Shown here in pieces: positions 1 through 23,981 of a stretch of DNA of 64,000 bases. The position numbers and the translations under genes are program-made. Source of the stretch: Physcia stellaris (lineage: Eukaryota; Ascomycota; Lecanoromycetes; Caliciales; Physciaceae); contig JABSSW010000049.1 of NCBI GenBank assembly GCA_018902385.1, forward strand, positions 158,005 to 222,004, given 5' to 3'. A model generated the notes under the pieces. The model was given only the letters and a program-made list of their open reading frames with translations, was not told where the DNA came from and searched no databases. Positions within the stretch are counted from its first letter, which is position 1; each line of letters starts with the position of its first letter.

Positions 1-647
1 TTTGTTAGAAATTTTTACATTGAAAAGATTAACGACTCGATATTAATATTGATAAACAAATTGACGAAATACGCAATCATAACAATCGCAAAAACGTTAA
101 ACGCGATAAATTTTGCGAATTTGTTATAACGAAAAATTCGTATGTCGTTATGAAATGATGCGTAACATTATTTCGAATCGAAAATTTTTTTACAAACAAT
201 TTTTGATTTACTTTGTCGTTTATCAAAATTTGAAAACGAAACGTAAATTTAACATTGTTTTTATTCATAAACAAATGAACAAACAAAAAAAAACAAAATG
301 TTGTGTTCGAACATTATTTGCGTGTATATTGCAATTTCAATGCAAAATAATTGATCAGAATTGCTATTTATGACACAATTTGTTTACAATAATAACAAAC
401 ATTCAAACATTAATCAAATTTTTCAAAAGTTTTTGTCTGAATACGTTGCGATTTAAATAACGATTTTGTGAACAATTTTAAAAAAAACAACATTTGCAAC
501 AAACAAAACAAAAACGTTTCGAAACAATCGAACGCATTTAATGAATTTGTGAAAAACGATTTTCGAACAACAAATCAAATATTATAATGAAAATCATATA
601 ATGAAAAATTTTGAATTTGAAAAAAAATGTTGTTGCGTGATATAAAT

Positions 648-1180
648 AAAAGTCATTATTCACGTGCGATTCGTATTTGTACGACATCAATCTCGACGAA
701 TCGCGTTTTCGATAAGACGAAATTCTGAACATTTTATCTTTGAATTTCGAATTTTTATTTTTTTCATTTGCATTTACTGTTTTTTAATTACAAGCGAGCA
801 AATAATAACAACATTATGAATAATATCAAGCGAACAAAAAAAAAACTAGAAAACTGATATGAAAAACGAAAAATCGACAAAGAAAAAAAAATGTGCAAAT
901 CGTCGTTTTGCGACGAAGAAAATTTGATTGATCGAGCGAGATTAAATCAAATAAACGAAATTTTTATACGAAAATTCGATGACGTCACGATCATTTGTAT
1001 GTGAAAAATAGAACATTAATATTTGTTTGCAAAGTGATCGAAAAACGAACATTTAATTTTCATACATTGAATCGAACATATCGAATTTTAAAAATGTTCA
1101 GAATTTCGTCTTATCGAAAACGCGATTCGTCGAAATTTGACACGTGCAAATACGAATCGCACGTGCGAATAATGACTTTT
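648..1180. repeat. Inverted repeat, arms 648-735 and 1091-1180
   Basis: The segment 1091-1180 is the reverse complement of 648-735 with a few small indels; the outer 43 bases are identical. The arms are about 90 bp and the loop about 355 bp. The arms keep several CT and AG dinucleotides that the surrounding sequence has lost, so they may be younger or less mutated. They could be terminal inverted repeats of a small DNA transposon or two oppositely placed fragments of one repeat. No transposase is seen between them. Confidence 0.7.
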
Positions 1181-3551
1181 TATAAATATTTCATCGAATT
1201 GCGTTTCAAAAAAAAAATTGATCATAAACAATTGAATTTTTCGAAATTGTCAAAAAACTAAATACGCAAATTTACGAATTTGATTTGTTTAAACAATATA
1301 AATTATACATTTTGTGTTTAATATTTTTTATTCGAATTCTGATATAGTTTTGACGACGCAAATTCAAAATCACGAATCAATATTAATGAAAAACGAAAAA
1401 ATGAAAAAATATCGCAAATGTTAAACAAACGCATTAAAAAATCAATTTGAATATTTTATTGCATGAATAAATTTATCGTCATATGAAAACTCGTAAAATC
1501 AATGAAACATTTCGAAAATGCGAAAAACGCAATTGTCAAATTCGAAAATACGCGCGAATTACGCAAATCTGAAAAAATTGCGAAACGTCGAAAAACAAAC
1601 AAATTCAAAACGAAATCGAGCGAAAAATTTTCAACAAAAAAACAAACACGTCAGTTTTAAAATTGAAAAAACGTGAACGATTCAAAAACAAAAATAACAA
1701 TAATTGCGACGCAAAAACACAAACAATAAAATGATATTGTGAATTGTTTTTGATTAAATCAAACGTTAATTTGCATACAGCAAACAAACAACAAAACAAC
1801 ACGTCATTTCAAAAACAAAACTCAATATTCAACGAAAAAAACATATTGACAAACAGAATCATGCGATCATTAAATCGAAAAAACACGAAAATGTAAATCA
1901 ACGCGTCAGTAAATTCATCAATCAAAATTCACATTACAACAATCAAATCGATTTCGATTGCGTCATGTTAATTGTTGTCGCGTTTAATGAAATTTTGTTT
2001 ATTATTGATTACGCGATTTTGTTGAATCGAAATCGACGCAAAAACAAACGCGACAACAAACGAATTTGTTTGCGATACAAACGCAACAAAATCAACAAAC
2101 GAAACAAACGCAAACGAAACGAAAACGAAAAAAATCAAAAAAAAAAACGACGCGAAAGTCGAAAAACGAAACAGAAAAAATTCGTTTTTTTCGAACAAAA
2201 ACAGAAACAAACGAAAAAAAAAAAAATGACAAACAGAAAAATTTTTTTCAACGAATTTTGACGATTTGACAATCAACGCAATTTTGCGAAAAAAATTTTG
2301 ATAAAAACAACGAATTTTTTTATTTATCATCATTTTTTTCATGTTAATCGCGTTATCATCAAAAAATCGTATGTTATTATTTTTTCAATATTGAAAAATC
2401 AATTTCAAATTGTCGTTATTTTTGACAACGAAAATGCGAACGTTGTTTTGCAATTTGTAAAAACATTGTTTTTTTCACAATAATGAAAATTTTTGTTGCA
2501 AAGTTCGCATTTGTTTTGTTTGTTTTCGTCAAAAAAAACGCAAACGTGTTTTGAATCAAAACGAAATTTTCGAACGCAACGTTGACATTACATATGAATT
2601 GACTTTGTTACGCGTCAAATTAATATGAAACAATTGTGTGTGTTTGTTTATTAAATTTGATTTACAATGCGATCGCGAACATCGCAATTCGAATACATGT
2701 TTGTCGTATTGATTGTATTTAACAATTCGAACGTAAAAATTTATCAATTTAAAACGCGTCAACAACGTCATCGTTATTTACAATACATTTACAGCAGAAA
2801 CAGCAAATTGCGTGTTTTTGCGAAACGTAACAAACAACGACGAAAAAAAAAATGAAATTATGATTTAAAATCGTTAACACACGCATTGCATTGTCGACGT
2901 TCGAAAATCAATTTCGTCGTTATTGAAACATCATTGCGACAATATCAAAATTTGTAAAAACGATGTGATAATTGTACAAACAACGATATATCATGTTGAC
3001 ATTATTGTCGCAATAATTGTTGTTATCGCAAAAAAAAAAAATCAAATGAAATATTTATTATGTTATGAAATAAAAATGTTAAAAAGAAAAAATTCAAAAA
3101 GTGAATTGAAAAATTGAAATAAACATTTATCAACACACGACGCGATTTATTTCGACTCGATTTCACAACACGAACGCGATATTTGAAATTGCATTACATT
3201 GTTATTGTTATTTTTATTTATTGAGTTCAATGTTTCAAGATTACACGTCGAAAACACAAAGTTATTTACAAAACAACGTTGTTGCGATACATTTCTGATA
3301 TGTTATAAAGACATTGATAGTTGACGCGAAAAATCGATGATTCAAAAAAAAAACAATTGTAATAAGACGAAGTCGATCAAGCGAACGTTAAAACGTTGTG
3401 AATTTAATTGTCGCATTTCGTGTTTATATATTCGAAATTTCACGAAATTTTTTTTGTTTTTTTAGCAATTAATTCTATTATGTGTTTAGCATTTATCATA
3501 GCAATTCATATTATTATTCGCATATTCTAATCACGCAATGCTTACATTTTT
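1181..3551. other. No recognisable gene; hypermutated AT-rich DNA
   Basis: Only low-complexity reading frames occur here, such as Lys/Asn-rich stretches around 2.0-2.3 kb caused by CAA- and CGA-rich sequence. I find no retroelement motif in them. The stretch lies left of the candidate Copia terminal repeat and is probably older, unrecognisable transposon sequence. Confidence 0.6.
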
Positions 3552-3636
3552 ACACGTTTCGTTTAATCGATCAATCAGAAATTTTGATTTTATTCGTGTT
3601 CATATTTCAATTTTTTGTCATCGTATTTTTCAACAT
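3552..3636 (-). repeat. Candidate 3' terminal repeat of the Copia relic
   Basis: This matches 16356-16440 in the same orientation over about 85 bp with sharp ends. Five of the differences are CT/TT or AG/AA transitions, and there is one small indel region. It lies downstream of the RNase H fragment of the minus-strand Copia element, where a 3' LTR is expected. Confidence 0.5.
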
Positions 3637-3741
3637 TTTCATTCGATGACAATCATGTTCATTGCATTCGTGAATACGATTTTCATTGAATTTCAATTTT
3701 TGCATTGATTGTGATTTTCATTGAATGTTAATTCGTGTAAC

Positions 3742-4157
3742 GACGTAATTTTCACTGAGTTTCAATTTTTACGTTCATTGATGAAAAAAACATTGAATTT
3801 TCTTGATCAGAAAATTGATTTCGAGAAAAATCATTTTGAATCATCATGCAATTCGAATTTGAGCACGATCAACGAATTTTTGTTTTCAATTATAATTTGT
3901 CAAATTCGTACAATCGAATCATCATCGTTTCAAAATGAAAAAAATGACGTAATTTTCATTAAACTCGAATTTTTTTAATATTGACGAGAGAAACATTGAT
4001 TTTCTTTGATCAGAAAATTAGATTCGAACGATTTCAAAAAAAATCATTTTGAATCATCATGCAATTCGAATTCGAACACGATCAACGAATTTTCGTTTTC
4101 GATCATGATTCGTCAAATGTGTACGATTGAATCATCAACACGTCAACATGAAAAAAA
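3742..4157. repeat. Two-copy tandem repeat of about 205 bp
   Basis: Unit 1 (3742-3945) and unit 2 (3946-about 4157) align along their length, each with a TTGATCAGAAAATT-type core and an AATCATCATGCAATTCGAATT-like segment (shortened here). A partial third unit start is visible around 3675-3720. It lies between the candidate LTR and the RNase H fragment, so it is probably part of the Copia 3' untranslated region. Confidence 0.65.
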
Positions 4158-4179
4158 CAATTTTGATTATTGAAAAAAT

Positions 4180-5120
4180 TTAATTGATTTTCGATTTTTT
4201 CAATTTCAATTGTTTCACGAATTTTTTGAATTTATTTTTTGACAATGATTTAATCAAATCATCGATTATCATATTTGCATTTGAAACGTAATTCAATTGA
4301 ATCAAATTTTTCTGATGCAAATTTTTGATGTTGTGATAAATCACATCAATATGTTTTAATCGTTCATGAATATGTGCGTTTTTGATCAACAAATTAACGA
4401 TTTGATTATTTTTCAAAAATTGCATTGATGAGCAAATTTCATGTTTATCGTTTTGAATGATTGTTATTTGATTCAATTCGATTTCAAAATATTTGATAAA
4501 ATTCAAATCACGAAAAAATTGTATTATTCATAATTTTTTTTAACGCATGTCGATAAAATCATATATTCGATTTCAATGATTGAAAAAGCGATCGATTTTT
4601 GTTTACGACTCATTCACGATATTGATTTTTCAACGAACATGTAAACGTATTCGAAAATCGATTTTTTGTTTAATTTATCGATTGCGTAATTAGAATTCGA
4701 ATAAATTTTGATTTTGAAATTTTCATTGTTGTTCAATTTCAAATCGTATATAAAATTTAAATCGATGATCGATCGAATATAACGAAACAAAATTTTCATT
4801 GTTTTATCGTGATGTTTCGCAAAATCATTGAAATATTGATTTAATCGTTTTAATGCGAAAACGATATTTGAACGAATGTGTATGACAACATACATAAATT
4901 TTTCAATTTTGTGTTGATAATTTTTTGAATCAATTCGTTCGTCGTTCGATTCAATTGATTTGAATAAATCGTAATCGTTCATGAATAATTTCGTGCGTTC
5001 GTGTTTATCGATATTCATATGCAATTCATTCAATATTTCGTTCAAATAATGAATTTGATTCAATCGAATAATTCGTTTTTTACGATCGCGAGTGATTTTA
5101 ATGTCAAAATTTTTTTTCAT
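4180..5120 (-). pseudogene. Copia polyprotein fragment: end of reverse transcriptase and RNase H
   Basis: The frame at 4614-5120 (minus) matches the Copia RT/RNase H segment. It has the run from the 'RDR..R.IRLNQ..YL.EIL' block through 'YQHKIEKFMYV', 'SNIVFALKRLNQY' and 'FRYIR..IDL' to the RNase H start around 'YSNSNYA'. The frame at 4180-4506 continues with the RNase H C-terminus, including 'ERLKHIDVIYHNIKNL' and a 'DDLIKSL' block. Neither fragment contains Gly, Pro or Trp, which fits loss of GG and CC dinucleotides. Stops and frame breaks lie between the pieces, so this cannot make a working protein. Confidence 0.85.
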
Positions 5121-5322
5121 TTTTTTTCAAATTTTTGACTTTGAATATTTTTTTGAATTCATTTTTGAATCAATTGATTTGTTCGTTGAATTTGACGACA
5201 ACAAAAATGTTGTTCACGTAAAAAAACAATATGATTTTTCGTTTTTTATGACGAAACATACAAAAATCAATCGAAATCTGTTCGAAATTCAATTTATGCA
5301 ATTTTTTCACGCAACGTTCGTG

Positions 5323-5634
5323 TCAATTTTTAATTGTTTGTTTCAATTCATAAAAATTTCGACAAATCAAAAATGTTTGTTTTGAAAATAAATTCACGTC
5401 GAATGACGATTTCATGTAAATTACTTTTTTTAAAAATGATTTCGTAAAAACATTGTTGACGTTCATTTGATGACATTCGAAATTTTTCAACGCAACGATG
5501 ACAAAAAACAGACGAAAAATATCGAATTTAACAATTAAAACAAAAATATTTGTATAGTCGATTTCATACATTTGCGAAAAATTTTTTGCAACGAATTTGA
5601 TTTTCAATTTGTTCAATGTATCATTCACATGCAT
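5323..5634 (-). pseudogene. Copia reverse transcriptase N-terminal fragment
   Basis: The minus-strand frame carries the Copia RT entry block: 'KFVAKNFSQMYEIDYTNIFVLIVKFDIFRLFFVIVA', then 'HQMNVNNVFTKSFLKKVIYMK'. Residues that are Gly, Pro or Ala in the family appear here as Asn, Val or Phe, as expected from the local mutation pattern. It lies directly upstream, in minus-strand sense, of the RT/RNase H fragment at 4180-5120. Confidence 0.8.
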
Positions 5635-6004
5635 TTTGATTTTGAATATTTATTTATTGATAACGATATTGACGTTTTTCGATAAAATGACGACGTTTCA
5701 AATTTCATTAATTATTAACGTTGTCAATTCGATTTGAATGATTTCAAATCAAAATTTGTTTCAAGTAAAATCATTAATTATTTTTTGATAATTTTCGAAT
5801 ACAAATATGATTAATTTTTCAACGAATTGTCGATTTGTTTTTTTTGTTGTTGCAAACAAAATTTATTTATCATGTTCGCACGTATCGAAATTTTCGATCA
5901 AAAAAATCATTATAACGTGTGCAATTTTGTTGCGATATTTATTTCGTTTTTTTTTCATTCGTGATATTTCGTTTGCGTTTGAAAATTGTCACGTGAAAAA
6001 ATTG

Positions 6005-6337
6005 CTATATCATGCGTGAAAATTTGATAAAAAATGTTAATTTAACGCGCGTTTGAATTGTCGATTTTGTCGTAAACTCGTTAATTTCGTTTTTTTCATT
6101 CGATGTATCGATGAATTCATTATCGTTTTTTTTTGTATGCATTAATTGAATTTTTTTTTTGTTTTTCGAAATCATGAACGCAACAAAAATCGAAATTTTC
6201 ACAAAAATTGATGCAACAAAAATTGATACAAACGTCGATGTCATCGAAACGATTGCAAATACAATAATTATTTTGCGTAATTTTTCGACAAATCGTTTTT
6301 CAAATAATTCGTTCATCGTAATCGTGAACAAATTCAA
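6005..6337 (-). pseudogene. Probable Copia integrase-RT linker fragment
   Basis: This is a 110-codon minus-strand frame without a diagnostic motif, located between the RT fragment (5323-5634) and the pre-integrase fragment (6960-7217). Low-complexity Ser/Thr/Val-rich sequence is usual in this part of Copia polyproteins. The assignment rests on position only. The rest of 5640-6959 shows no recognisable integrase catalytic block, presumably because of mutation. Confidence 0.35.
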
Positions 6338-6959
6338 CGATTCATTTTTTCATTTTTCATGTTCAAAAAACATTATTTTGTGATGCTTGATGACATCACG
6401 ACGATCGAAAATTCATATCTTGTATTGAATTGTGATGTTTTCGTCATAATTCATGAACACGTTCGATTTTTTTGTATTGACGAATTTGTTTTTTTATTTT
6501 TTCAAACAATGATTTGATATCAACGAGCGAATAACATTTGTATTTTCAAATTCGTATGTGATTTATCGACGATTTAATATTTGTTCAAATTTCAATAAAA
6601 TTTGTTGAATTGTCGTCGATTATTGATTTCGTGTTTATACGATTGCGAATATATATATTTGTTTTTTTTGTTTCAAGTCAGAATTTTATAAACAGTTTTG
6701 CATTTTGAATTATTGTTCGAATTTGATTTTCGAATGTTTTTATGACACGTTTTATTACATCGTTCTGAATGAAATTATACGAAACGATGTATTGTGAAAC
6801 AATGTCGATAAATTCGCATCAAAAATCGAATATAAATTTCAATTCTTTGACGTTGTCACAACGTATTGTCTGTAATTTTCGTTGAGTTTTTAATTTCATT
6901 TTTAACTTTTATTTGTTGAAAATTTCAAAAACATCGACTCGTTTGCGAAAAAATAAAAT

Positions 6960-7730
6960 TCACGTTCGTCGAAAATGATTATTCACGATTTTTAAAAAAT
7001 ATTCGTAATCGAATCTTGAAACAAATAAAAATTCGCAAATATCAATAAATATCAATTTCAATATATGAGTTTTGCGTTCGATTAAACGACGATTATATGC
7101 ATTAATCATTTTCGTAATCGCACATATTTTACATGAATCGTTGCGATTTTCGACGATGAAAATCGATTTGCGTAAAATTGTGATTTTGTACAAATTTCGA
7201 AATTTTGCAAATTTCATATGATCAAAACGTCGATGTCATAATTCGTATAAATTACGTTTTTTTTGATTAACATTTGAATCAATATTTGAATCAACATTTG
7301 AATCAATATTTGAATCAATATTCGATAATTGAAAATCGATTTCGATATCATTTCGAAAATCAATATTTGCATCGAGCAAAATTTCGTTCGAATTTACGAT
7401 TGTTGACATTGCAAATGAAACAAACAAAATTTTAAAAAATTCAATTGCAAACATCGTGTTGTTCGTTAACAATGCGTATTTTTTAAATTCTGATGTGATT
7501 TTGTTTATTATGTAAACATTTTTTTGAACGAATGTTCGAAATATTTCAACGTTTTGTTTATTGCGCATGAACAAATTATCGTCATTGAAATTTTTTATCA
7601 AATTTTTCTTGATAAAATGTTTGTCGAATAAAAAATTAACGTCAAAATCAAATACATAAAACATTTTCGTTAACGTGTTTTTATCATTTTTGACGCGTAT
7701 CGTCATTGAATCACATTGATTTAAATACAA
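6960..7730 (-). pseudogene. Copia protease-side and GAG-pre-integrase fragments
   Basis: Frame 6960-7217 has the pre-integrase/integrase entry signature: 'CKICAITKM', 'LIFIDICEF' and 'YFLKIVNNHFRRT', where the family has a C..C zinc motif and the first catalytic Asp region. Frame 7236-7730 resembles the stretch after the aspartic protease ('LTKMFYVFDFDVNFLFDKHFIKKN' compares with the NVLYVP..NLLS block). An Asn/Asp/Ser-rich repeat is added at its end. Both are broken copies. Confidence 0.75.
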
Positions 7731-8039
7731 TTTTTTTTTTCGATTTTGATCGTGCGTTTTTTAATCGATTTGAAAAATTCATTAAAAAATCGAAAATCGT
7801 TAATCATGTGTGACGAAACGTCGATATTTGCGATTCATACGAATTTGAAAAATTTATTAATAAATTTTTTTGACAAAACGACGATTTTTTTTATATCGTT
7901 TTCATTGTTTGAATCGATGTCGATGTCGAAATTGAAATTGTTATTAAACGAAAAAAAATTTGCGACGTTGTACGTTTTATACTTTTTTTTTTTTTTTTTT
8001 TTTGATTGTGAACAATTTTTTGATTTGTTGTTTTTTTGC

Positions 8040-8612
8040 TCATTTTTTTAATGTTTTCAGAAAATTGCATTTGACGATTCTGTGTGAATCGTCACAAAAA
8101 AAACAATTTTTAGTTTTTTTCGTCATGATTTTGAAACGACGACGAAAATTTTCATCAAAATTAAAAAATCGTCGTTGAAATATACGATACGATTGACGAC
8201 GATTGTTTTTGATCATTAACGTCGATTCGACGATTTTGTTCGCAATGAATTGTGTTTTTTTTTTTTGCAATTTTTGAATAAATTTATCGATATCGAAATT
8301 GTTTTGTGCGTCGATTGCATCACGAATGACATCGTATTCGACAAATAAAAATGTTAAAAATGTTTGAAAACGACGTTTTGATTTGAACAAATTTATTATG
8401 TTTGATTGCATGCTTGCAATTTTGCGATTTTTTTTAATGATATCGATATAAACGATTTCAATAATCACGTTTGAAAATTTTTTGTAATTCATGAATTTTT
8501 GCAACAATTGTCGTTCAATTGTAACAAACTTTTGTTTGTATTTGTTGACAAAAATTTTTCAAATTTTTTTGACAATTTTCAATTTCGTTATCAATTTTTG
8601 ATTATCGTTATC
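8040..8612 (-). pseudogene. Copia gag, C-terminal part with zinc knuckle
   Basis: The minus-strand frame ends in a CCHC-type knuckle (Cys-x2-Cys-x3-His-x4-Cys, one residue short of the usual spacing) after an Arg-rich stretch. Upstream it reads 'VNKYKQKFVTIERQLLQ', typical of the gag UBN2-like region. An in-frame TGA stands where the family commonly has Trp, as expected from TGG to TGA. The frame runs to 8612 and is cut there by the Gypsy LTR; it continues in phase at 15731. Confidence 0.75.
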
Positions 8613-8795
8613 TGTAGAAATTCAAAATTAATAGAATTAATGTGAAAAATCGTTTGACTTTATATAATAAATTAATCGCAAGAAGCGCATAATTGATTTT
8701 GACAAAATTCAAAATCAAAATTAAATTTTGAATTTTAGACGAATATATCGTTTCGATTGTCGAAAAATCTTTTGTCAAGCAATTTGATCATTACA
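8613..8795 (-). repeat. Gypsy 3' LTR (183 bp)
   Basis: It aligns over its full 183 bp with 15548-15730, with 11 differences and no indel. Every difference is a CT/TT or AG/AA transition. The ends are TGTAG...TTACA, giving the usual TG...CA with a short terminal inverted repeat. It is flanked on the left by TATC. Confidence 0.93.
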
Positions 8796-8808
8796 TTTTT
8801 TTCTTTTT
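8796..8808 (-). other. Polypurine tract of the Gypsy element
   Basis: Thirteen consecutive pyrimidines on the plus strand (purines on the minus strand, AAAAAGAAAAAAA) abut the inner edge of the 3' LTR. This is where the plus-strand primer of an LTR element sits, and it supports minus-strand orientation. Confidence 0.7.
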
Positions 8809-11025
8809 AAACAACAAATAGATAAACAATCATATTGCGCATCATCAAGAAAATTTTCGCAAACATCGTAAATTGATTTCAATTCGTGTACGAAATAAAT
8901 ATTTGAAATAAAAGTGTTAAAATCATTTGAATGTCAACAAAACATATTTTTTTTTATTTTTCGATTGAAACAACATGATCGAAAAATTTTGAATCATTTG
9001 TAAAATAGTTTCGTTTTCAGTCAATTTGTATGCGCAATTGACTGAATCAACGATAATTTATGACATCGATCGCGTTCGAATTGTCAATCAAACGACGATG
9101 AATGAAAATTCAATTCAATGATGATCGTGATTAATAATGAACAATTTCTAAATCGTTTGACGACGCAATTTCGTGAAAAACATTCGAGTTTGCGTCGAAC
9201 GACAATAAAAATGAACATCGAATATTTCGAAAATGAAAATAATTTTCAAATTACGCATTTTCAAAATTTGACAATTATTTTAATTCAAATAAAAAGTTTT
9301 TCAAATTTTCAATATTTTTTCAGTGATCGCGTACGAAAATCGTTCATGTTGACAATTGATTTAATGCAACGATCGAGAAATTGAATTTTCATGCGATCAA
9401 TGTTCGAGCAATCGCTCGTTCATTGTTTGTATAATTTTCACAAACGTCAATCAAAAAACATGCGACAATTGCATTTACATGCATCGTGTTTTCGAATGTT
9501 TTTTTAGCAAATACGTTTTCGTTGCAAATTTTGATTCGATAATTGAACAACACAATATTTCAATTACGTTCGATAATCGAGTTGATACGCGTGTTCACGA
9601 CGATGTGATTGACAATTCATCGTCGTATTTTTTTGTGCGAATCAATCGACGAAAATTTGAAATATTGTCAATTTTAACGATTTTGTTTTCGTCATTATCG
9701 CAATCAGTGTTTGCAATAACATCGATTGCGACGACGATTCAAACACAATTCGATCAATCATCAAATGAAAATGAAAATTTTTCATGAACGATGAAAACGA
9801 TTCGATGTTTGCGTCGTCAAATTCATCGTTTTTATCGACGAACGAAAACGAAACATTCGAATCGAATCAATCAACACAATCAACGATTGTTGCACAATCA
9901 TCGATTGTAACACAATCATCGATTGTTCAAAATTTCAAAACGATGTCGTTTTTTGATTTTTCACGATCAAAATCATTTTTTTTTGATTTTGATTGATTGA
10001 TTAAAGCGTTTGAAACAACGTCGTTAAAATGAAAAAAATGATGCACGTTTCGAGCGTGTTCATATTTTCGTCGTCAAATTTAAAGAATCGATCGTTGCGT
10101 TACGACGTCAAAAAAAAACGTTCGATCGTTCGATGTCGTGATATCGATAACGATGAAAATTAAAAATTTCGTAAAACATGATTTTCGAAATGAAAATTGA
10201 AAAAAACGATGAATTTTCTTTGTTGAAAATTAAAAGTTCGACGTTGAACGTTATTTGTTTTTATGAATCATGTTACGAAAAATCAATGTTATGAGAAACG
10301 ATTTCATCGTGTTTGCGTTACATGCGACGATACGAAAAAATCAATCGATTATTTCTTGATTGCATTGATTCATGATTTATTCGTATTTCAAATCAAATTT
10401 CACAAAACGAAACAAAGATGCGTAAATTTGAATAATAAATACGATTTTTTTTCACTTTTCGGAAATCTCAAGAGGAAAAAACGACAATAATAACAACAAT
10501 AACATAGAAAAAAAGCAACAAAGAATTCGATTTTTCGCGTGAAATCATTCTGTATGAATCGTACAAAATTCGACAAACATTTTTTTTTTAAATGATTCAT
10601 ATTATGTCATCGTTTTCAAAAAGTTCATCATTCGAAAATGACATATAGTTTTCATTCGAATTTTTTTTTTCAGCATTTCGAATTTTGCGCGATTTGTCAC
10701 GTTTTTTTTTCGATGTTACGACTTTTTTCGCAACGACGTCAATAATTTCAAATTGTTTTTTTGTTTTGAACGAACGTTCGCGATTTTTAAACATACGTCA
10801 ATTCTTGTTCACTTTTTCATTCACATTGATCAATTTCATTCGATCATCATTGATAAAATATTTATTTGACGACTTTTCAAACGATTTAAACACATAAATA
10901 TTCAAAATTTCATTGCGTACGATTTCGTAAAAATTATATCAATCGATTTCGAATTTTTTTGATTTTTTCGTTCGTATCAATATCTTGTCGTTTTCGTGAA
11001 AAGTTTCTTTTTTGATTTTCGCATT
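8809..11025. other. 3' part of the Gypsy element, mostly unassigned
   Basis: Between the integrase end and the 3' LTR lie about 2.2 kb without a family motif on the minus strand. Plus-strand frames at 9118-9384, 9479-9787 and 9784-9996 (the last Ser/Thr/Gln/Asn-rich) are unusually long for this block, and are either antisense artefacts of the biased composition or a second, unrecognised insertion. The minus frame 10597-10794 is Lys/Arg-rich and could be the integrase tail. Confidence 0.4.
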
Positions 11026-11250
11026 TCAAATTGTTTTGTTCTTTTTAACACGTTGCATGATTTTTTTGAATGTTTTTGCGCGTTCACGATTCAAAAATGA
11101 AATCGAATTTATTTTTTCGTTATACAAATCTGAAGTTGATTCATCGACATCGTCAAACAAAATCGAATTGATTTCATAAAAAAAATAAAAAAATGAAAAG
11201 TCAATCGTCGTATGCGTTCGAATTCGCGTGACGAACAAAATTTGATTCAA
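11026..11250 (-). pseudogene. Gypsy integrase C-terminal fragment
   Basis: The frame reads 'RIRTHTTIDFSFFYFFYEINSILFDD' followed by an Arg/Lys-rich segment. This corresponds to the integrase block with the HxxTGxSPxxLxYG pattern and the following PxD. The Gly and Pro positions have become Asp, Phe or Glu. It lies downstream of RT and RNase H in minus sense, as in Gypsy elements. The catalytic core between 11.3 and 12.3 kb is not recognisable. Confidence 0.65.
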
Positions 11251-12402
11251 ATAAATGTTTCAATTTTTGATGAAATTTTCAATGCAATATTTGATCAACA
11301 TATGATTCAAAACGTCATTGAAACGTTTCATTGTTTCGTTCGTTCTTGAATGATAAAAAATAATATTTTTATGTTTGATTTCAAGCAACGCAAATGTTTT
11401 GATCATAACAAATGTTCACAAATTGACATTTTTATCAATGATGATTTTCTTGAAAATCTCGTAATCACGATAAATATCGTTGATCACGAAATTCGCAAAA
11501 ATTTCGAAAATTGTTTCAAAAATAACGCGTGTAACAAATCATTTGATCGCATAATCAATAACAATCACGATTCATTTGTTATCATTGACAATAATAAATA
11601 GTGATTCGATCAAATCGAAATTTCAACGTTCAAATGATTGATTTTTATCAAATCAAATTTTTGAAAAATGCATTACATTTTTTTTGACGTTTTTGAATTT
11701 GACGATCAATTGACACTTTGAACACGTTCGCACAAAATGTTTGATGTTTTTGCGCATGTCGAATCATCATTGTTTGATTTTAATGATGTCAAACAAAATC
11801 GTATTCGAGCAATAATCATAGATTTTGTGAACATGATTCAAGTAATTTGCACAAATTCAAAATTCGATGTAAAAAATTCAATTGTCAACAAAAAAATCTC
11901 GATAATGCGAAACATTATCGTCGTTCAATTTGAATTGATTTTTATATTTTTTCAATTTCGCATTTCATTTTGTTTCATTTAACAAAATTTTATCGCGCGC
12001 ATAAATTATCATCGTTTCGTCGAAAATGATGATACGCAAATTTATTTGCAAAAATCGCAAACGATAATCGCTTTTTCGATTCAAAATATCGAGCACAATC
12101 ATTTCAAATTTTGATTTATATTTGATGTTCAAACGATATTTTTCGAATTCAACGAATCAACGAGTCAAACGATTCGATGATTTTATTGTATTTTTCAAAT
12201 ATTACAATTCGACGTGATTCGTACGCATCAAAATTGTCGTTTCATTTTTCACGTAACATTTTCATTTTCGCAAATTTTTTTTGATGATCAAAAATTCACG
12301 TTCGTGAATCGCATAATTACGTTCGACGAAAAAAAATGTTTTGTTTTCGAAAACAATAAAATGTTTTTTGTCATCGAAATCTATTTGATAAAGCATCGTT
12401 TC

Positions 12403-13041
12403 TCATTCGAAATTCGAAACATCGATATCAATGATGAATGACAAAAACGTATCAAATTGCGTCAATACACGATCATTACACATGACGTTTTTGATGATCG
12501 TAAAAACGTTTTTGATCGAAAATGTTATAAATATCGATTTGTATTTGCGACTTTCAACTTTCTGAATAAGTTCATAAAGTGACTCAATAATAATGACAAA
12601 ATTCTTTATGAATTTTCGATAATAAACACAAAAACTCAAAAAAAAACGAACATCGTGTATCGTTTGAAACGACGATCAATTTTGAATGATTTTCAATTTG
12701 ATTTCGTTCATGCGCATTTCATCATTGTTTACGATATGTTCACAAAATTCAATTTGTTGTTGAAAAAAAGAACATTTCGACGATTTCGCATAATAATCAT
12801 GTTTGTAAAAAATTTCAATCACGAATTTCACATGCTCGAAATGTTTTTCGTCGTTTTTGAAATAAATCAATATGTCGTTCAAATAAACGATCACAAATTT
12901 GTTCAAATACGATTTCAACATATCATTCATGATTGTTTGAAAAATCGCAAAGACATTAATCAATTCGAAAAACATGACGCAAAATTTATATTTGTTTCGT
13001 TTGATATTGAATGTTGTTTTGTGACGATTTTTTTCGATCAC
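12403..13041 (-). pseudogene. Gypsy reverse transcriptase and RNase H fragments
   Basis: Frame 12676-13041 is the RT palm: 'FAIFQTIMNDML', then 'FVIVYLNDILIYFKNDEKHFEHV', 'YYAKSSKCSFF' and 'FCEHIV'. The catalytic Asp pair is Asn-Asp, consistent with a GGAC to GAAC change. Frame 12403-12639 follows with 'FCVYYRKFIKNF', a 'LTQFDTFLSFIIDIDVSNFE' block that is the start of RNase H. Family positions for Pro, Gly, Thr and Ala are read as Phe, Glu, Ile and Val, exactly the outcome of CC, GG and CT loss. Confidence 0.88.
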
Positions 13042-13230
13042 ATTGATTTGTCAATAATCACTAATCAAATCAATTTTGTTAAAATTTCTCGTTGTTTCGA
13101 TCATGTCTAAACAATCTTGAATTTTCGACAATGAATAATTGTTTTTTTGCGTCATCGCGTTGAAAATTCTATAATTTATACACATACGTCAGAAGTCATT
13201 TTTCTTTTCGACAAAAAGAATTGACGTTTT

Positions 13231-13695
13231 TCATGACGACGTGTTTGATCGTATTAAATTTCTTTTTGTTAAATAATCGATTTGAATAGCTTGTTCGTTC
13301 AATTGTTTCTTAAAAAGTTCGTACGAAAACTTGTTTATTGATTTAACGTTTTCAATATCAATGCGATGATTTTGCGATCTTTTCGGAAATGATTGATTCG
13401 AAAAATCGTTTTTAAAAATTTTTCTCAACACATCGAAACTCAAAATTCTGTTCAGTTTCGCGTTGTCGATAATGTGCTGAATAAAAACAAGTTTTTCAGA
13501 CGACTTGACGACTTCTTGATCAGTAATACGAACAACGTACAAATAAACTTGAACGTTTTTTCGTATCAATCGCTCGAAAACACGTTTCGTTACAACTTGA
13601 ATTTCAAATGATTGATTTTCGAGAATTTGCAAACGAGAATTGTGATTTTTCATGTTCGCAAACAGAAATTCTTGATTTTCGTTTGTTACACGCAT
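13231..13695 (-). pseudogene. Gypsy protease-RT junction fragment
   Basis: The end of this frame, 'IDIENVKSINKFSYELFKKQLNEQ' (abridged) to 'LTKRNLIRSNTSS', corresponds to the first RT block of Gypsy elements. In the family this contains the pattern H.I....P.....LS..E...L...L..LL..G.IR.S.SP. It precedes the palm fragment at 12676-13041. Confidence 0.7.
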
Positions 13696-14315
13696 ATCGA
13701 GCGTATTGTAATCAAAAATTAAACGATATTTTTGTCAGAAATTTTCGTCTAAAATCAGATCGTTATTCATATTAAAAATCAAACAATCAATGATTGTATG
13801 AAATTCATCTTTGTTTCAATTAAACTTAATGAAATCAACGACGTCAACAATTTTATCATTTTTCAATTGCATTCTGTCAAAGAAATGTTGTAATTTCAAT
13901 TTCAGCAAATCGACAATGCGTTGAATAATGAAACAATGAAAAACATTCGAATTTGCAAATACAACGACGCGACGTTTTTTTTTTGCGTTTACATCGAAAC
14001 GTAATCACGTTTTCGACATACGTTTATTAACATTCAGATTGATTAAAAACATCAATTCGTTTTTCGATTGTATTTTTGAAATGTACGAACTTTTTTCACG
14101 AATTTCAAAGTTTCAAGATTTCGACGTTTTTATATTTGACATTTTCGAAATCGTGATTGTGATAAACGAAATTTGTTTATTTTCAATTATCGAATCGTTT
14201 TTTTTGTCGATTTTGAGCGATTCATCGCGATCATTGTGCAATTCATGCGACGACGATTTCAAACGTTTTTCGAATTTTTGTCTTTGTCACGATTTTTATC
14301 GTCTCGACGAAATCG

Positions 14316-14690
14316 TCAATTTGACGAATCATTTTCAAACACGATGAAATTCGAACAAATTGAAAACAAATAATTCGTTTGATCACAATTGTAGCATTTT
14401 TTCGCGAAAACATTCATAACGTTTAAATTTTTTTGTTGTTTATTGTCTTGAGCGACAAAAATTTGTGTTGATTGATTCGTCGCTGAAATTGCTCGAAAAA
14501 CACGAAAAACATATTTTTTTGCGTTGACATTTTCGTGTTTCGAAACATTCGTTATCATGTTGTGCAAATTCATATTCGAATACATTTGATTTTGATTGAA
14601 AATGTAATTTCGAATATCGATTTTGAATTTATCACGATATTTTTTTTTGATCGCGAACTCAATAACGTGTTCGCGAATGTTTTCGTACAT
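14316..14690 (-). pseudogene. Gypsy gag, zinc-knuckle part
   Basis: The frame includes 'KKCYNCDQTNYLFSICSNF', a CCHC knuckle in which the His position now reads Tyr. It is upstream, in minus sense, of the protease/RT fragment and downstream of the gag body at 14871-15410. Confidence 0.6.
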
Positions 14691-14870
14691 CGACGTGAAT
14701 TTGTTATTGTAATCGACGATTTTGTTGTATGCGTCAGATTGAATGATTTCGTTGTATATTTTGAAAAATTTCTGTTGTCAATCGTGCTTGTCTCAACAAA
14801 TGAAAAAATATTTCTTGAATTCGAATCATTTGTCATCAGATTTTTGCAAATGAACAAACAAAAAAATAAA

Positions 14871-15410
14871 TCATTCGACAATTTTGTTTTCGAAATATTG
14901 TTCGATGACGATAAAAACGTTAATTTTGTTGATTAAATGTGAATTGAACACATGAACTTTTTCGTGTTTGAATAGAAAGTTTTTGATTTCAACATGATTA
15001 CGTTCACGTTTTTGAAAAATTGAAAAACGACGATCGATAATTTGATTATCGAAAATGATTTGCGTTTCAATTTGCGTGTCAAAAAGAATAAAATTAAACA
15101 AATGATCGTCGTCGTTAAAATCAACGATGCTCGTAGAAAATTGATTGTGATTTATGAATAAATTGATTCGTGAAATACGTTCACGATCGCGACGAAATTG
15201 ATCATTTAGTTGAACGACGACATCATTTTCGATCAAATCGACGTTTTTTTCGTTCGAATTTTCGACGATTTCGTCAACGATTTCATCGAATTGATTGTCG
15301 AATTTTGTTGCAATGTTCGCAAAATTTGAAAAATCGAAAACAGTCGTACGTTGTGAAAAATCATTTGAACGATCACGACGACGTTCTAAATTATCACTTT
15401 GAATAAACAT
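14871..15410 (-). pseudogene. Gypsy gag N-terminal part
   Basis: A 179-codon minus-strand frame, rich in Asp, Asn, Arg and Phe, starts about 140 bp inside the 5' LTR, where gag is expected. It has no motif of its own that I can name; the assignment follows from position within the element. Confidence 0.5.
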
Positions 15411-15547
15411 GATAATTGATGAATAGAAAATTTTAAAAATTTTGAATTTTCAAATGAATATCAAGTGCAACGAAAGCAATTTGAATTGACAAAAAGCAAT
15501 GAACACAATCAAATACACTGTAAATGTAAAAAAAATGATGCTATCAA

Positions 15548-15730
15548 TGTAAAAATTCAAAATTAATAAAATTAATGTGAAAGATCGTTTGACTTTATAT
15601 AATAAACTAATCGCAAGAAACGCATAATTGATTTTGACAAAATTCAAAATCAAAATTAGATTCTGAATTCTAAACGAATATATCGTTTCGATTGTCGAAA
15701 AATCTTTTGTCAAACAATCTGATCATTACA
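15548..15730 (-). repeat. Gypsy 5' LTR (183 bp)
   Basis: This is the partner of 8613-8795: same length, same TGTA...TTACA ends, 172 of 183 positions identical, and flanked on the right by TATC. Being on the right, it is the 5' LTR of a minus-strand element. Confidence 0.93.
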
Positions 15731-15900
15731 TATCGATACATTCGATAAATTGATATTGTGTTTTTGCGTCGAATTTTTTTTCAATTTTTTTTTTATCAAA
15801 ATTCAAATCGACATTTTATTTTGATTTTCGAAAATCATTCGACAACAATTTTGACACATAATTTGAATCGACGATTATTCAAATTTTTTCGTCGATAAAT
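15731..15900 (-). pseudogene. Copia gag N-terminal fragment, right of the Gypsy insertion
   Basis: Read on the minus strand, this segment is open except for one internal stop and continues in the same phase into 8612 once the Gypsy copy and one TATC are set aside. It contains a 'SNYVSKLL' block similar in position to the N-terminal 'NY..W' motif of Copia gag proteins. That similarity is weak; the phase continuity is the stronger evidence. Confidence 0.55.
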
Positions 15901-16355
15901 CATTGTTTCATTAATTTGAATCATTTTTCGCAATTTTGATTAATGAAAATATCGCAAACTCGACGCGCATTAAATTTATTGAATTCGAAATCGTTCATGA
16001 TGCGTGATATAATATGTAAATATGTAAATTCTTTTTATTTGTTGTATTTCGTGAAACATTTTCACAATCGTTCATTCATTCGTTGAATTGATGATCGAAT
16101 TCGAATATATAAAACATTTTTACAGTTTTGACGCGATCGAATCGATAAAACATTTTCATTGCTGTTTGATTTTCGTGATTTCGTGATCGAGCGATTGACG
16201 TTAACAATCACAAAAAATTTATGTTAATTCGAATTTCATAATTTATTGAACGAATGTGAATGATTGTTATTGCATTGCATGCAATATTATCGAAATTACG
16301 TACAAAAATAAATACAATTTGATTGCGCAAATGTTTTTAGTAATAATCGATTTTG

Positions 16356-16440
16356 ACACGTTTCGTTTAATCGATCAATCAAAAGTTTTGATTTTATTCG
16401 TGTTAAATATTTCAGTTTCTTGTCATCGTACTTTTCAACA
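16356..16440 (-). repeat. Candidate 5' terminal repeat of the Copia relic
   Basis: Direct-repeat partner of 3552-3636. It lies upstream, in minus sense, of the gag fragment at 15731-15900. Its right end abuts unrelated sequence before the Harbinger relic. Confidence 0.5.
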
Positions 16441-16638
16441 ATCGAGCAGTTTTATCAACGATCAAAATCTGATTTTTAATTTTCGTATTGTTTTGAACAG
16501 TTTTTTTTGTATGAATTTTTCAAGTATTCGATTTGATTCGTTGTAAACGTGTTCAAACAAATATTCGTTTTTTTCAAAATTTCTGAAAAATTCTTTCTCG
16601 TCAATAACGAAAACATGAAAAACGATACACGCGTTGAT

Positions 16639-17733
16639 TCAACATGCGACATAAACGATATTTTGTTCGTTATGTATCGCGATACGAAATTCTTTTAAAA
16701 ATTGAAAACGATTTTTGAAATATTTTATCGCGTGTTCGTTTCGAATTCTAATGCGATTCAAATTGTAATTGAAATTTTTATTGAAAATCGATTTGTTGTG
16801 AGATTTTTTGTAAAAAATCATCAGTCATTCATGCAAAAAATATTCAACATTCGTTCATATTCATTCGTCGACAATAAATAGAAAAAAACGATGTTTGTAC
16901 AGATTGATTTTTAGAAAACAATGAGAATCGTGACGATTGTCATTGAACTCATTGACGTAATCGATGATTTGTCTATTATGAAACGTATTGATAATTTGCA
17001 CGTTGATAAAATATTTGTTTTTTTTATCGAAAAAAACGTCATCGTAATAATGAGATTTTTCGAACAAAAATATAATTGTTTCATCAATCATACATCAATC
17101 ATCATGTCATTCAGACGATGTTTCGATATTTTCAATTCATTGCTTTGTAATTTCGCAAATTTCATTGTTTTCGTCTGATCATTTGATGTAATTTTTCTGC
17201 ATATTCGATTCGAGAACTTCAACGATAATTCGTTTGATGACTTTATGTACAATATTTTTGTCAATTTCAATTCAATGAGCGATCGTTTGCAAATTATTGT
17301 TATTGTCGTAAATTTCAAATCGCTTAAAAATAATAAGAATTTGACGTTTCACGAATATTTGCTGTTGATGATTATCGTTTTGAAAAACGAATTGATGTTG
17401 CAATCGTTTCATCAAACGATCGAATGTGAAAAAATTGATACGAATTTTCTGTCGAAATAATTTCGAACGATGTTTGAAAAATTCGAAAATCATATCAAAA
17501 TTCACAGAAGTTTTGAGTATCGATCGTGAAATCATGAAATTTCGCAATTGATCGATATGTTTCATGACGTTCAGCATTTTTTTCGTGTATTCATCATTCG
17601 TCGAGTTCTCGAACGACGAAAAATTTGACAAATTCAAATTTTTCACAAGTTTGTTGATCAAATCGACGAAAAAACTCGTAATCAACAAAATTTGAACGCT
17701 CAATTTCAGGTCAGTTTTAATCATGTTGTGCAA
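16639..17733 (-). pseudogene. PIF/Harbinger-type (DDE_Tnp_4) transposase relic
   Basis: Four minus-strand pieces give the transposase in order. 17272-17733 has the helical N-terminal region ('FRQKIRINFFTFDRLMKRL', then 'FVKRQILIIFKRF'). 16861-17091 has the catalytic core start ('MIDETIIFLFEKSHYYDDVFFDKK', abridged, and 'NDNRHDSHC', which holds the second catalytic Asp). 16639-16821 has the C-terminal 'RIRIRNEHAIKYFKNRFQFLKELR'-like helix. Gly positions read Glu or Asp. Frames are broken at about 17.3, 17.09 and 16.84 kb. Terminal inverted repeats and a TAA/TTA duplication were not found. Confidence 0.8.
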
Positions 17734-17834
17734 AAAAAAAAATGAATTAGCAGACGATCAACAACAACAACGAAAATCAATGCAACATCAAGAATTTTTC
17801 ACTATATCAATTCAAAAGTAGTAGAGCTTGATCT

Positions 17835-17914
17835 CGAAACGTTTCGCTCGCTACATATGTGTAAAGCTCCTCTTCAGACGAAACGTCGAAACGTTTCGAT
17901 CTCGAAACGTTTCG
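17835..17914. repeat. Three copies of palindrome CGAAACGTTTCG at the isochore boundary
   Basis: Perfect 12-bp palindromes lie at 17835-17846, 17887-17898 and 17903-17914. Two are preceded by GATCT. A CTCGCTACA after the first copy is matched in reverse complement by TGTAGCGAG after the third, so the whole forms a larger inverted structure of about 90 bp. It marks the point where hypermutated DNA gives way to normal DNA. Confidence 0.8.
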
Positions 17915-18677
17915 AGGGTGTAGCGAGCAAAAACAACACGCTGTGACCGCCCCTAATGCACAAAACCGAGCTAGCTTGCTACTCATGTCCAGCTTTTCAC
18001 TCCTTGTGATGCTCTATCCGCCACAATAAATGCGGAAAGAATACAAGTCCCCTATAATTTGCTCGAAAGCAAGAAAAAAGCTTCGGAACCGTCTGGCACC
18101 CAATCAAGTAAACATGTGTCTTTCAGGAACCAGATGGAACGAAGCGAGAAGTTTGAATAAACATGGGAGGTGTGGAAATGATGAGCCCTGCCAAGCTCGG
18201 CAAAGCTACGATTGGTGGACGCAAGGTCAAGCCTTTAACCCATCACGGCATCTCGCAGAAGCGTGGAAGCATCGGTCACGCGACCCTGGAAATCTCCATC
18301 AATCAGAAAGCCGAATGACGACCGGAAACCTAAGATCTCACGGTCAAGCTTTTCTGCCCGGAAAGTCTGGGGAAAGGCCAAGAGGAAGATCCCTTGAGAG
18401 TTCAGAGGAATGGGGGCAGACGCTGGAAGATAAAATCAACCTTTTGGCCTCCAACAATTACCAAAAGTCGAGGCCGAAAATGCGGTTGCACGACGGACGC
18501 TATCCAAGGCGAACTGTTGGAGTTCCAGACTAGCCGAGGCTTTCGACGAGCCCGCCTCGCTCGCTATGTCAGCCCAACACCTGCTTAAAGCGGGGGTGTT
18601 CCCTCTGTGTCTTACCAGCACAACCGCTGTCGCTGTCGCACCTTACAAGAACATCCTCAACCGCAATCGCCGCAATC
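17915..18677. other. Intergenic, no supported gene
   Basis: Base composition is normal. A 167-codon plus-strand frame at 18030-18533 has no recognisable domain and lies in the upstream region of the transporter gene; I do not call it a gene. Promoter sequence for 18678 presumably lies here. Confidence 0.5.
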
Positions 18678-20338
18678 ATGAAGTTCGGCGCAGGTAGCAC
18701 TGAGAAAACTGTCAGTCCTGCCGCCGACTCCCCCGAGCGCGCCGTCTCCACCACCACCGATGTGCCCCTCGAAAACATCCAGAAGGGCCGCTGGGAGCGC
18801 AGTTGGCCGACCATTGCCTGCGGTGCCGGCTTGTTCTCCGATGGCTATCTCAACGGGTATGGCCGACTCACTTGACATCCAGACACGGTTCGCTGACAAC
18901 GCAACGGCGCAGGGTCATTGGCCAAGTCAACACCATGCTCGGTCAGATCTACGGCAGCAGATACAAATCCTCCCCCGCCCAATCCAACGTCGCCTCGCTG
19001 GCATTCGCTGGTACCGTCGTCGGCCAATTGTTCTTCGGCTGGGTCAGCGATCACTATTCGCGGAAATGGGCACTCATGGCTAGTACCATCATCCTGATCC
19101 TGTTCGCTGCTCTCTCGGCCGGATCATACGGAGCGGGCGGAAGTCTGGAGGGAATGCTGGCTGCGCTCGCGGCATACAGATTCCTGATCGGCATCGGGAT
19201 AGGGTGCGTCGCGCTTCCTCCCTCAAACGCTCAATACTAGATGATATGACCGCTGACAAGGCCACAGAGGCGAATACCCAGCGGGCAGCGTCGCCTGCGC
19301 GGAAAGCACAGGCGAGCTCAAAGCCGGCCACCGCAACCGCTGGTTCATCATGTTCACGAACGTGCAAATCGACCTGGGCTTCGTGCTCTCGAACCTAATC
19401 CCCATGATCCTGGTGCTCATCTGCAGCGAATCGCACCTGCGCGCCGCCTGGCGCCTCTCCCTCGGCCTAGGCGTGATCCCGCCCCTCTCGCTCTTCTACC
19501 TGCGCCTCAAGCTGCGCGAACCAGAGCAATTCAACCGCGAAACACTAAAGAACACCAAAACGCCCTGGCTGCTGGTGATGAAATACTACTGGTTCCGGCT
19601 CACGGTCGTCTCGCTGATCTGGTTCATCTACGACTTCTCAGCCTACAGCTTCAGCATCTACAGCTCCGCCTGGCTGTCCCTGATCCTCGGCGCCTCGGCG
19701 CCCCTCTGGAAGACCTTCGCCTGGAACACCCTCGTCAACATCTTCTACCTCCCCGGCGCCATCGCCGGCGCGTTCCTCTCGGACCTCATCGGCCCGCGCC
19801 TCTGTCTCGGCATCGGCGTCCTCGCGCAAGGGGTAGTGGGCTTCGTCATGGCGGCCGCGTACAGCAAACTCAACCAGCCCTCCCACGTCGCGGGCTTCGT
19901 GGTCGTTTACGGCGTCTTCCTCTCCCTCGGCGAGGCCGGGCCGGGGATAACATCGGCCTCGTCGCGTCCAAGACCTCCGCCACCGCCATCAGGGGGCAGT
20001 ACTACGCCGTCGCGGCCGCGTGCGGGAAGATCGGCGCTTTTGTCGGGACGTATGTGTTTCCGATCATTCAGCGCAATGCGCCGGGGGGAGAGAGCGGCAC
20101 GAGAGGGGGGCAGGATCCGTTTTTTGTTAGTAGTAGTCTTTGTGTATTGAGTGCGTTTCTGGCGTTCTTTTTGTTGCCGAGTATTGGGCAGGATACGATT
20201 GAGAGCGAGGATGGGAAGTTTAGAGCGTATCTTGAGAGTAGGGGGTTTGATACTAGCAAGATGGGGGTGCGGGGGTATCAGAGGGAAGGGGAGAGGGGGA
20301 GTGAGGAGGGGAGGGGGAGGGAGGGGAGTGGGAAGTGA
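18678..20338 (+). CDS. GIT1: Git1-like glycerophosphodiester/glycerophosphoinositol transporter (MFS), one frameshift
   Basis: The predicted protein is a 12-helix major facilitator that imports glycerophosphodiesters across the plasma membrane by proton symport. Exons are 18678-18856, 18913-19203 and 19268-20338, joined by clean GT-AG introns of 56 and 64 bp. Key blocks are 'GLFSDGYLNGVIGQ' (TM1), 'GQLFFGWVSDHYSRKW' (the MFS loop 2-3 motif), 'GIGIGGEYPAGSVA', 'RNRWFIMFTN', 'WFIYDFSAYSF' and 'GEAGPG'-'DNIGL'. The 'GGEYPAGSV' and 'FIYDFSAYSF' blocks favour Git1 over Pho84-type phosphate carriers. At 19943-19946 a run of four G leaves the frame one base short; the C-terminus continues intact in the next frame to a stop at 20338. 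A missing G explains it, so this is more likely a consensus error than a dead gene. Confidence 0.8.
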
Positions 20339-20616
20339 GCTGGGATTTTCGCAAATGGGGGAGGGCGGATTGTATATACTCCGTAGCACGTACGGGTAAT
20401 AAATCCGAACTCTCGTCTTCCTGCTATGTGTCCCTGCTTCTTCTCTTCTGTTGGTTTGATCGACGGGTCTAATCTTCTAAATCGTTGAACTCTGTGTGTC
20501 TAGACCTCGGCCTCATACCATCTCATAAGCTCATTGCAATCCATCAATCTCATAACCTCGTCTATCCTGCACCACAACCCCAACGCCGTTCTCACTCCCC
20601 CTCCTATCCCGCACCC

Positions 20617-21784
20617 TCAAACCCCCGTACCCTCAAACAACCACTTCAACCTCTCCACACTCTCCCTCCCCCTCCCCTCAACCTTCGTAATCCCCGCCGC
20701 AGCCCTCGACTGCCCCCTCCACCTCCCCGCCTCCACAACCTCCCTATTCTCCCCCCGACTCAACTCCTCCACCACCTTCGCAACCACCCGTTTCGCATTC
20801 GCCCCATTGGCAACCATATGCCCCAACACCATCTCGACACTAACGCCCTCAACCGTGCTGTGCCAGCTATCATAGTCGGTGCTCATGCAGATCAAAGAAA
20901 ACGCGATCTCGGCCTCGCGGAAGAGCTTCGCTTCCGGCATCGCGGACATGTTGATGCAGCTGACGCCGAAGGAGCGGTAGAGGATCGATTCGGCGCGCGT
21001 GCTGAATTGCGGGCCTTCGATGCAGATTACCGTTCCGGAGGGGTGCACGGTGAGGTTGGGGCCTTCGAGGAGGTTGGGGGTTGAGAGGGCGGTGGTGAGG
21101 AGGGTGGAGAGGGGGCGGTCGAAGGGGTCGGCCATCGAGACGTGGCCGACGGTGCCGGATTCGAAGAATGTCCAGGGGCGGACCTGAATGTGGTTTAGCT
21201 TTTTGTGGGGGCGGTTGTTGAGATTTTGGTAATTGGTGGGGAACACGCTCTAGCTTTTGCCTTGAATGAGGTGTAGATATTGGGTTTTGTTCGTAAGAAA
21301 ACAAGGGGGTGGGTGTGCTCAGCTTACCCCCTTCGTCCAGTCCAGCACTTGGTCCACGACTACAAAATCCCGGGGCTTGACTTCCTCCTTCAAGCTGCCT
21401 ACAGCGCTAAAGCCGATTGCGCACGTCACACCGAGTCTCCTTAATGCTGCGACATTTGCACGAGTCGGTATCTCGTGCGGCGCGTACTGGTGGTGTAAGC
21501 CATGGCGGGCAAGGAAAGCGATGGTTGTGGCTTTTGGGTTTGGTGTTGAAGTGGAGGACGGAGGCGTGTAGGATAGGATCGATATTGGGGAGGATGGGAG
21601 GCCCCAGGGTGTTTTGGGTGGTGGGATAAGGGCGAGAGGGGTGAACGGTGGGGAGGGGAGGGATGAAAGACCCGTACCACCAATGATGGCTATTGGGACA
21701 GGATCTATATGGTGTTAGCAATCTCTCTGGCGACTATGTGATTGGGAAGACGGTACCAGTGTAAGAGTCAGGAAGCTGAGCCAT
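20617..21784 (-). CDS. MEU1: S-methyl-5'-thioadenosine phosphorylase
   Basis: The enzyme cleaves methylthioadenosine with phosphate to adenine and methylthioribose-1-phosphate, the first step of methionine salvage. Exons on the minus strand are 21757-21784, 21328-21704 and 20617-21183; the introns have good GT-AG ends and the total of 972 nt gives 323 residues, normal for the family. Visible motifs are 'IAIIGGTGLSSLP' (phosphate loop), 'FLARHG', 'HEIPTRANVAALRRLGV', 'GFSAVGSLKEE', 'CIEGPQFSTRAES', 'NMSAMPEAKLFREAE' and 'STDYDSWH'. The order and spacing are those of the PNP/MTAP family. MEU1 is the yeast name. It converges with the transporter gene, with 278 bp between the two stop codons. Confidence 0.93.
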
Positions 21785-23652: not shown

Positions 23653-23981
23653 CCTTCGTTGACGAGAGATGATGGCTTTGATATGGTCCTACATATAGTA
23701 CCTTGCATGCAGAGTGGCTTCAGGATAAGTAATCGACCTCGACCACCTTATCAAATATTTCGCCAACCCTAGATGATCAGAAATCTTTAGGGTTATGGAG
23801 GCTAAGCATAAATTAGAAGTCACGAAAATCAGATGAAAAGAGGTTTAGTCTGGTGTTCGATCATTTAGCACTTTCTTCCGATGCATTTGAGAAAATAGAC
23901 TCATGTGTTTTGGTACTTTGTTGTTTCGATCTGCAACCCTGTTACGCCTCGCTACATAAGTGTCGTTCAACATTAAGCTTG
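23653..23981. other. Intergenic
   Basis: About 330 bp between two minus-strand genes. Nothing beyond probable BUD22 promoter sequence. Confidence 0.4.

Follow-up and report, generated by a model that had tools for sequence, protein, structure and literature searches.

A repeat block of Physcia stellaris depleted of CpC and CpT, consistent with a RIP-like process that reads a 3' pyrimidine

The DNA analysed here, hereafter called the window, is a stretch of 64,000 nucleotides from the ascomycete Physcia stellaris (assembly GCA_018902385.1, contig JABSSW010000049.1, positions 158,005 to 222,004 of the forward strand). The window opens with a block of repeats, mainly a Gypsy-type long terminal repeat (LTR) element nested inside a Copia-type element, and continues as gene DNA. 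An initial annotation, made from the letters alone, had described positions 1-17800 as nearly free of CpC and CpT, and of GpG and ApG on the same strand, with CpA, TpG and CpG common and TpA rare. Counting bore this out for CpC: these positions (GC 27.2%) hold 0 CC, 4 GG, 157 CT and 186 AG, where base composition predicts 328, 331, 903 and 860, respectively. CA was counted 1173 times, TG 1150, CG 1086 (observed/expected 3.30) and TA 931 (observed/expected 0.40). The two short intervals singled out in the annotation were also as described, with no CC, CT, GG or AG and a single TA in 9781-9900, and none of the same four dinucleotides in 15241-15300. The slightly wider interval 1-17946 contains only 1 CC and 6 GG, and the TGG trinucleotide does not occur in the block. 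The remainder of the window, 17801-64000, has ordinary dinucleotides and a GC content of 49.7%.

With both strands pooled, the block holds 0.22 CpC, 19.3 CpT, 130.5 CpA and 122.0 CpG per kb, against 120, 130.6, 138.3 and 108.4 in gene DNA. CpC has thus been essentially eliminated, and "nearly absent" is slightly strong for CpT, which remains at about 15% of its gene-DNA level; CpA and CpG stand near gene-DNA density, and TpA is rare. This make-up was approximated by a simple model in which gene DNA was converted at 100% of CpC, 85% of CpT (a value set to fit) and none of CpA and CpG. The model returned a GC content of 0.266 against 0.272 in the block, 19.1 against 19.3 CpT per kb, 368 against 354 TpT plus ApA per kb, and 43 against 52 TpA per kb. 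The standard indices of repeat-induced point mutation (RIP) had been expected to overlook such DNA, and none of the 70 500-bp windows of the block passed the classical criteria. Although AT-rich, the block 1-17946 has CpG at about 3.3 times the expected frequency, and decay of methylated CpG therefore seems weak in these repeats.

The coordinates of the repeats are collected in Table 1. The presence of Gypsy- and Copia-type repeats, also suggested by the annotation, is supported by a match to RVT_1 within the nested element (12745-13209, with two TGA inside) and a match to RVT_2 within the Copia-type element (5119-5709, with three TGA and one TAA inside); positions 4001-6478 were assigned to the latter element through the RVT_2 match and not through DNA search. 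Using window 1-4000 as query, at least 84 matches were obtained, the window itself included, with 40 of 172 candidates scored. The nested arrangement at 3546-16440 shows a possible duplication of a 4-base target where the inner element inserted. Pieces of the block from window position 1 to about 9294 are collinear with genome contig C2 near 1142133-1151238, a possible sign of a segmental duplication encompassing part of the nested element. An Rfam search of the window gave no match.

Table 1 Features of the window, with the evidence for each.
Feature	Position	Strand	Evidence
Repeat block, nearly CpC-free, CpT-depleted on both strands, CpA/CpG largely kept	1..17946		Dinucleotide counts
Repeat family, units 1-648 and 1198-3554	1..3554		Matches elsewhere in genome, 78-97% identity
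Copia-type element, about 5.8 kb, 3546-8612 and 15732-16440, interrupted by nested element	3546..16440	-	RVT_2 match and DNA similarity
Nested Gypsy-type LTR element, 7.1 kb	8613..15731	-	RVT_1 match, LTR pair
LTR, first copy, 184 bases	8613..8796		LTR pair comparison
LTR, second copy, 184 bases	15548..15731		11 differences from first copy
Further repeat	16439..17216		One 87% match full length, one 92% match partial
Low-copy repeat, depletion stops at its end	16836..17946		One other copy among matches listed, 92%
Control region, gene DNA	17947..64000		Ordinary dinucleotides, 2795 CC, 2734 GG

The direction and sequence context of the changes were read from related copies. The window was compared with copies fetched from the genome in 66 alignments longer than 300 bases, each genomic position being used once, and 7268 transitions and 1274 transversions were observed. 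Where the 3' base was shared, C/T differences numbered 6622, comprising 3375 at CpT, 2484 at CpA, 722 at CpG and 41 at CpC. The order is different when sites are taken as the denominator, because few CpC and CpT remain to differ: among positions with C in one or both of the aligned sequences, the proportion that varies is 91% for CpC, 87% for CpT, 14% for CpA and 4% for CpG. In stacked columns that hold C and T only (identity of at least 88%, at least 8 rows; columns already entirely T are invisible to this count), the share of T was 96% at CpC, 83% at CpT, 13% at CpA and 8% at CpG. Removal of overlapping loci, which had dropped 36623 aligned positions, barely changed these shares (96%, 84%, 14% and 7.5% with overlaps retained). 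CpA, which as the main mutated context would have spoken against the annotation's proposal of C-to-T change with 3' pyrimidine context, is therefore per site a much weaker target than either CpC or CpT, and the family alignments support C-to-T change before a pyrimidine (CpY) on both strands of the repeats.

Neighbouring bases contribute little at CpT. The share of T is 0.84 after A, 0.82 after G and 0.83 after T, with 0.97 after C (61 cells), and it ranges from 0.82 to 0.85 with the base on the 3' side. The LTR pair of the nested element, whose members were presumably identical when it inserted, differs at 11 of 184 sites, and all 11 are C/T or G/A at CpT/ApG, with no transversion. Among alignments longer than 300 bases no copy retains more than 7 CpC/GpG, even where copies are richer in CpT, and CpC was therefore hit first. 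Runs tests for strand clustering of residual CpT gave no consistent sign; most |z| values were below 2, with a few at or beyond 2 in both directions.

The depletion ends with a repeat. The only partner copy among the matches listed aligns to window positions 16836-17946 at 92%, and the differences along this alignment at the repeat edge are mainly C/T or G/A at CpT/ApG, together with a CpA change. CpC is nearly absent before 17946 and ordinary from 17947, with the loss weaker in the last 150 bases, so that its return coincides with the end of the repeat at the single edge examined on the window side; the depleted block reported for 1-17800 is real, and its end lies nearer 17946 than 17800. A wider comparison used 250-bp windows from the fetched loci, which overlap and were chosen by similarity, not at random; 5 windows with N were excluded, and the very low GC of one fetched locus was traced to a run of N. 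All windows with a GC content of at least 0.40 hold more than 10 CpC (27 of 27 in the repeat loci and 56 of 56 in the methyltransferase loci). The 1060 windows below 0.40 include 999 without CpC, 56 with 1-3 and 5 with at least 4, and none of them passed both classical RIP criteria. The annotation had asked whether unique AT-rich DNA is equally depleted; these data answer in part, with ordinary DNA past 17946 and CpC kept in every GC-rich window of the similarity-picked loci.

The same context can be recognised in the stop codons of transposon domains elsewhere in this genome. Change of GpG to GpA turns the tryptophan codon TGG into TGA, whereas CpA-directed RIP yields TAA and TAG. Among matches to three transposon domain families, 695 of 838 stops are TGA. 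The 137 RVT_2 matches (150 of 165 candidates scored) contain 401 TGA among 505 stops, with 101 TAA and 3 TAG; the 150 RVT_1 matches (150 of 527 scored) contain 250 among 286, with 33 TAA and 3 TAG; and the 10 DDE_1 matches contain 44 among 47, with 3 TAA and no TAG. All these counts are from this one genome. The excess of TGA agrees with the predicted conversion of TGG. Transposon domains free of stops lie on several contigs, and escaped or recent copies may exist.

Three genes (four matches) were recovered when the genome was searched with the cytosine-5 methyltransferase profile PF00145, as the annotation had recommended. In the first, C3, the triad reads ENV and the methyltransferase domain spans 392 residues (501-892), and no BAH domain was detected at an E value of 0.001. 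DIM-2 enzymes are marked by an ENV triad, a long methyltransferase domain and a BAH domain. This open reading frame is likely DIM-2-like; the methyltransferase domain of the class II (DIM-2) enzymes is given as about 400 amino acids (PMC4352252). The other two genes, C5 (loci L003/L004) and C6 (locus L001), have open frames, with introns placed by eye, and both carry an SPPCQ motif. Their motif VI triads are EQT and EET, respectively, and they are 40% identical across the catalytic domain. The interval between motifs VIII and IX, measured for C6, is 83 residues and corresponds to a short target recognition domain (TRD). A PDB search with C6 returned general C5-methyltransferases only. By the PCQ of motif IV, the EQT or EET of motif VI and, in C6, the short TRD, both are predicted RID-class methyltransferases. 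EQT and EET are described as the two triads of that class, EET occurring for example in Botrytis cinerea Rid and in Pseudogymnoascus destructans (PMC6709928). Both types of motif VI are thus found within one genome. A 2008 account states that methyltransferase activity of RID and Masc1 had not been demonstrated (PMC2432034).

We propose, with a probability of about three in four, that the block was shaped by a RIP-like, repeat-directed C-to-T process that reads a 3' pyrimidine, probably by way of a RID-class methyltransferase. Repeated DNA would be recognised through its homology to another copy, presumably before meiosis, and C would be changed to T on both strands wherever a pyrimidine follows, with CpC taken first, CpT second, CpA much less and CpG least. 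Successive rounds would bring this close to completion, with hardly any CpC and a minority of CpT left, and tryptophan TGG codons would become TGA stops, leaving relics that are AT-rich and oddly rich in CpG. The actor would most likely be a RID-class cytosine-5 methyltransferase, working by methylation and subsequent deamination or by enzyme-assisted deamination, and the EET-type paralogue may be that actor. Such a system would work like RIP with a different target, and since CpA was tested and found not to be preferred, it is placed here among RIP-like variants, outside classical RIP.

Several observations weigh against this reading. By plain count CpA supplies 2484 of the 6622 C/T differences (37.5%), against 3375 at CpT; many CpA sites survive, which accounts for the high share, but a weaker CpA activity is real and must exist, and it is perhaps that of a second enzyme. 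CpA changes reach 20% when T follows, roughly double the 8-11% before other bases, perhaps again a sign of a second activity. TAA makes up 137 of the 838 stops, and stop-free matches amount to 4 of 137 for RVT_2, 10 of 150 for RVT_1 and 1 of 10 for DDE_1. On the partner side of the examined edge, CpC stays missing for about 150 bases past the end of the repeat, a stretch that may reflect leakage or may simply be AT-rich. The argument for repeat targeting is drawn from one repeat edge and from loci picked by similarity, and what connects a RID-class enzyme with the process is the presence of the predicted genes.

The CpA component bears directly on a sharper form of the proposal, in which the EQT-type RID would carry out weak CpA RIP and the EET-type paralogue would be a dedicated CpY mutator. 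In favour of this division of labour are two open-frame RID-class genes that differ in their motif VI triad, and EET is the triad of the Rid of B. cinerea (PMC6709928), a fungus whose transposable elements bear a CpT signature beside CpA (PMC4352252). The latter source, though, gives CpT as a predominant signature of Magnaporthe oryzae too, and we regard the division as possible but somewhat short of an even chance. Much less probable is gradual loss, in which CpY methylation of silent repeats during growth would be followed by slow deamination, with no repeat-sensing burst. A DIM-2-like enzyme is present and the outcome is near saturation, as this would have it; the ceiling of 7 CpC/GpG in every copy aligned over more than 300 bases, the 11 context changes without transversion in the LTR pair and the retention of CpG at gene density argue otherwise.

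The annotation had allowed for a deaminase of different specificity, and C-to-T change on both strands under a context rule would be compatible with a cytidine deaminase of the AID/APOBEC type acting on repeats. APOBEC/AID enzymes read 5' bases, and the base 5' of CpT has little effect here; the runs tests, moreover, gave no consistent strand clustering, and two RID-class methyltransferases are present. A genome search with APOBEC_N, the one deaminase family searched, found no match, which says little because the controls were equally silent. On these grounds a deaminase is now a very unlikely source of the pattern. An artefact of library chemistry or base calling is hardly credible: complete loss of a dinucleotide is unusual enough to raise the suspicion, but gene DNA on the same contig is ordinary, the change at the repeat edge is sharp, and transposon domains on many contigs carry matching TGA stops.

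The preferred reading, a RIP-like process directed at CpC and CpT, shares with classical Neurospora-type RIP the C-to-T change on both strands of repeats, the end at a repeat edge and the RID-class genes. It differs in its target, CpC and CpT instead of CpA, in the low TpA, in the predominance of TGA stops and in the negative indices. Methylation induced premeiotically (MIP), in which repeats are methylated without mutation, does not describe repeats that are mutated. Other precedents are the transposable elements of B. cinerea, Sclerotinia sclerotiorum and M. oryzae, in which Amselem et al. (PMC4352252) list CpT to TpT as a predominant or secondary signature in the presence of a RID/Masc1 gene, with CpG signatures elsewhere. 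For all three fungi CpA is listed as well, with no mention of CpC in the relevant passages, whereas in P. stellaris CpA is weak and CpC strongest. The CpG/TpCpG hypermutation of Basidiomycota is likewise a context-shifted, RIP-like mutation of repeats (PMC4014442, PMC4352252), but the P. stellaris repeats preserve CpG better than any other context, and the genome has RID-class genes. The PCQ motif IV, EQT or EET motif VI and short TRD are common to the RID/Masc1 methyltransferases (PMC6709928), the difference here being that both triads occur in one genome.

Parts of the pattern have been noted before. CpT to TpT was recorded beside CpA with RIPCAL (PMC2621366), and CpA RIP with CpC to TpT double changes was described in Monilinia (PMC8959702), so loss of CpC is itself already noted. 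In Colletotrichum truncatum families were scored as CpT by alignment despite high TpA indices (PMC6180176), so alignment-based CpT calls may conceal CpA RIP; this does not fit the present block, with its low TpA and undiminished density of CpA. A survey of 1,239 genomes concluded that a preference for CpA is common to RIP-like defences (PMC12543289). CpT signatures beside CpA are therefore already published, and in the literature searched, which left most subscription papers outside, no report was found of CpC and CpT as joint target with CpA largely spared.

The usual hallmarks of RIP are depleted CpA and raised TpA. Repeats that lose almost all CpC and most CpT yet keep CpA would score as free of RIP, and surveys may therefore undercount RIP-like defence. 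The altered context, together with a pair of RID-class paralogues that differ in motif VI triad, makes it possible to ask directly how RIP chooses its target. Tentatively, one RID-class paralogue with its target moved from C before A to C before a pyrimidine may constitute a complete, separate RIP pathway. If this is true, such a CpY pathway would kill genes by turning tryptophan codons into TGA, unseen by surveys that rely on CpA indices.

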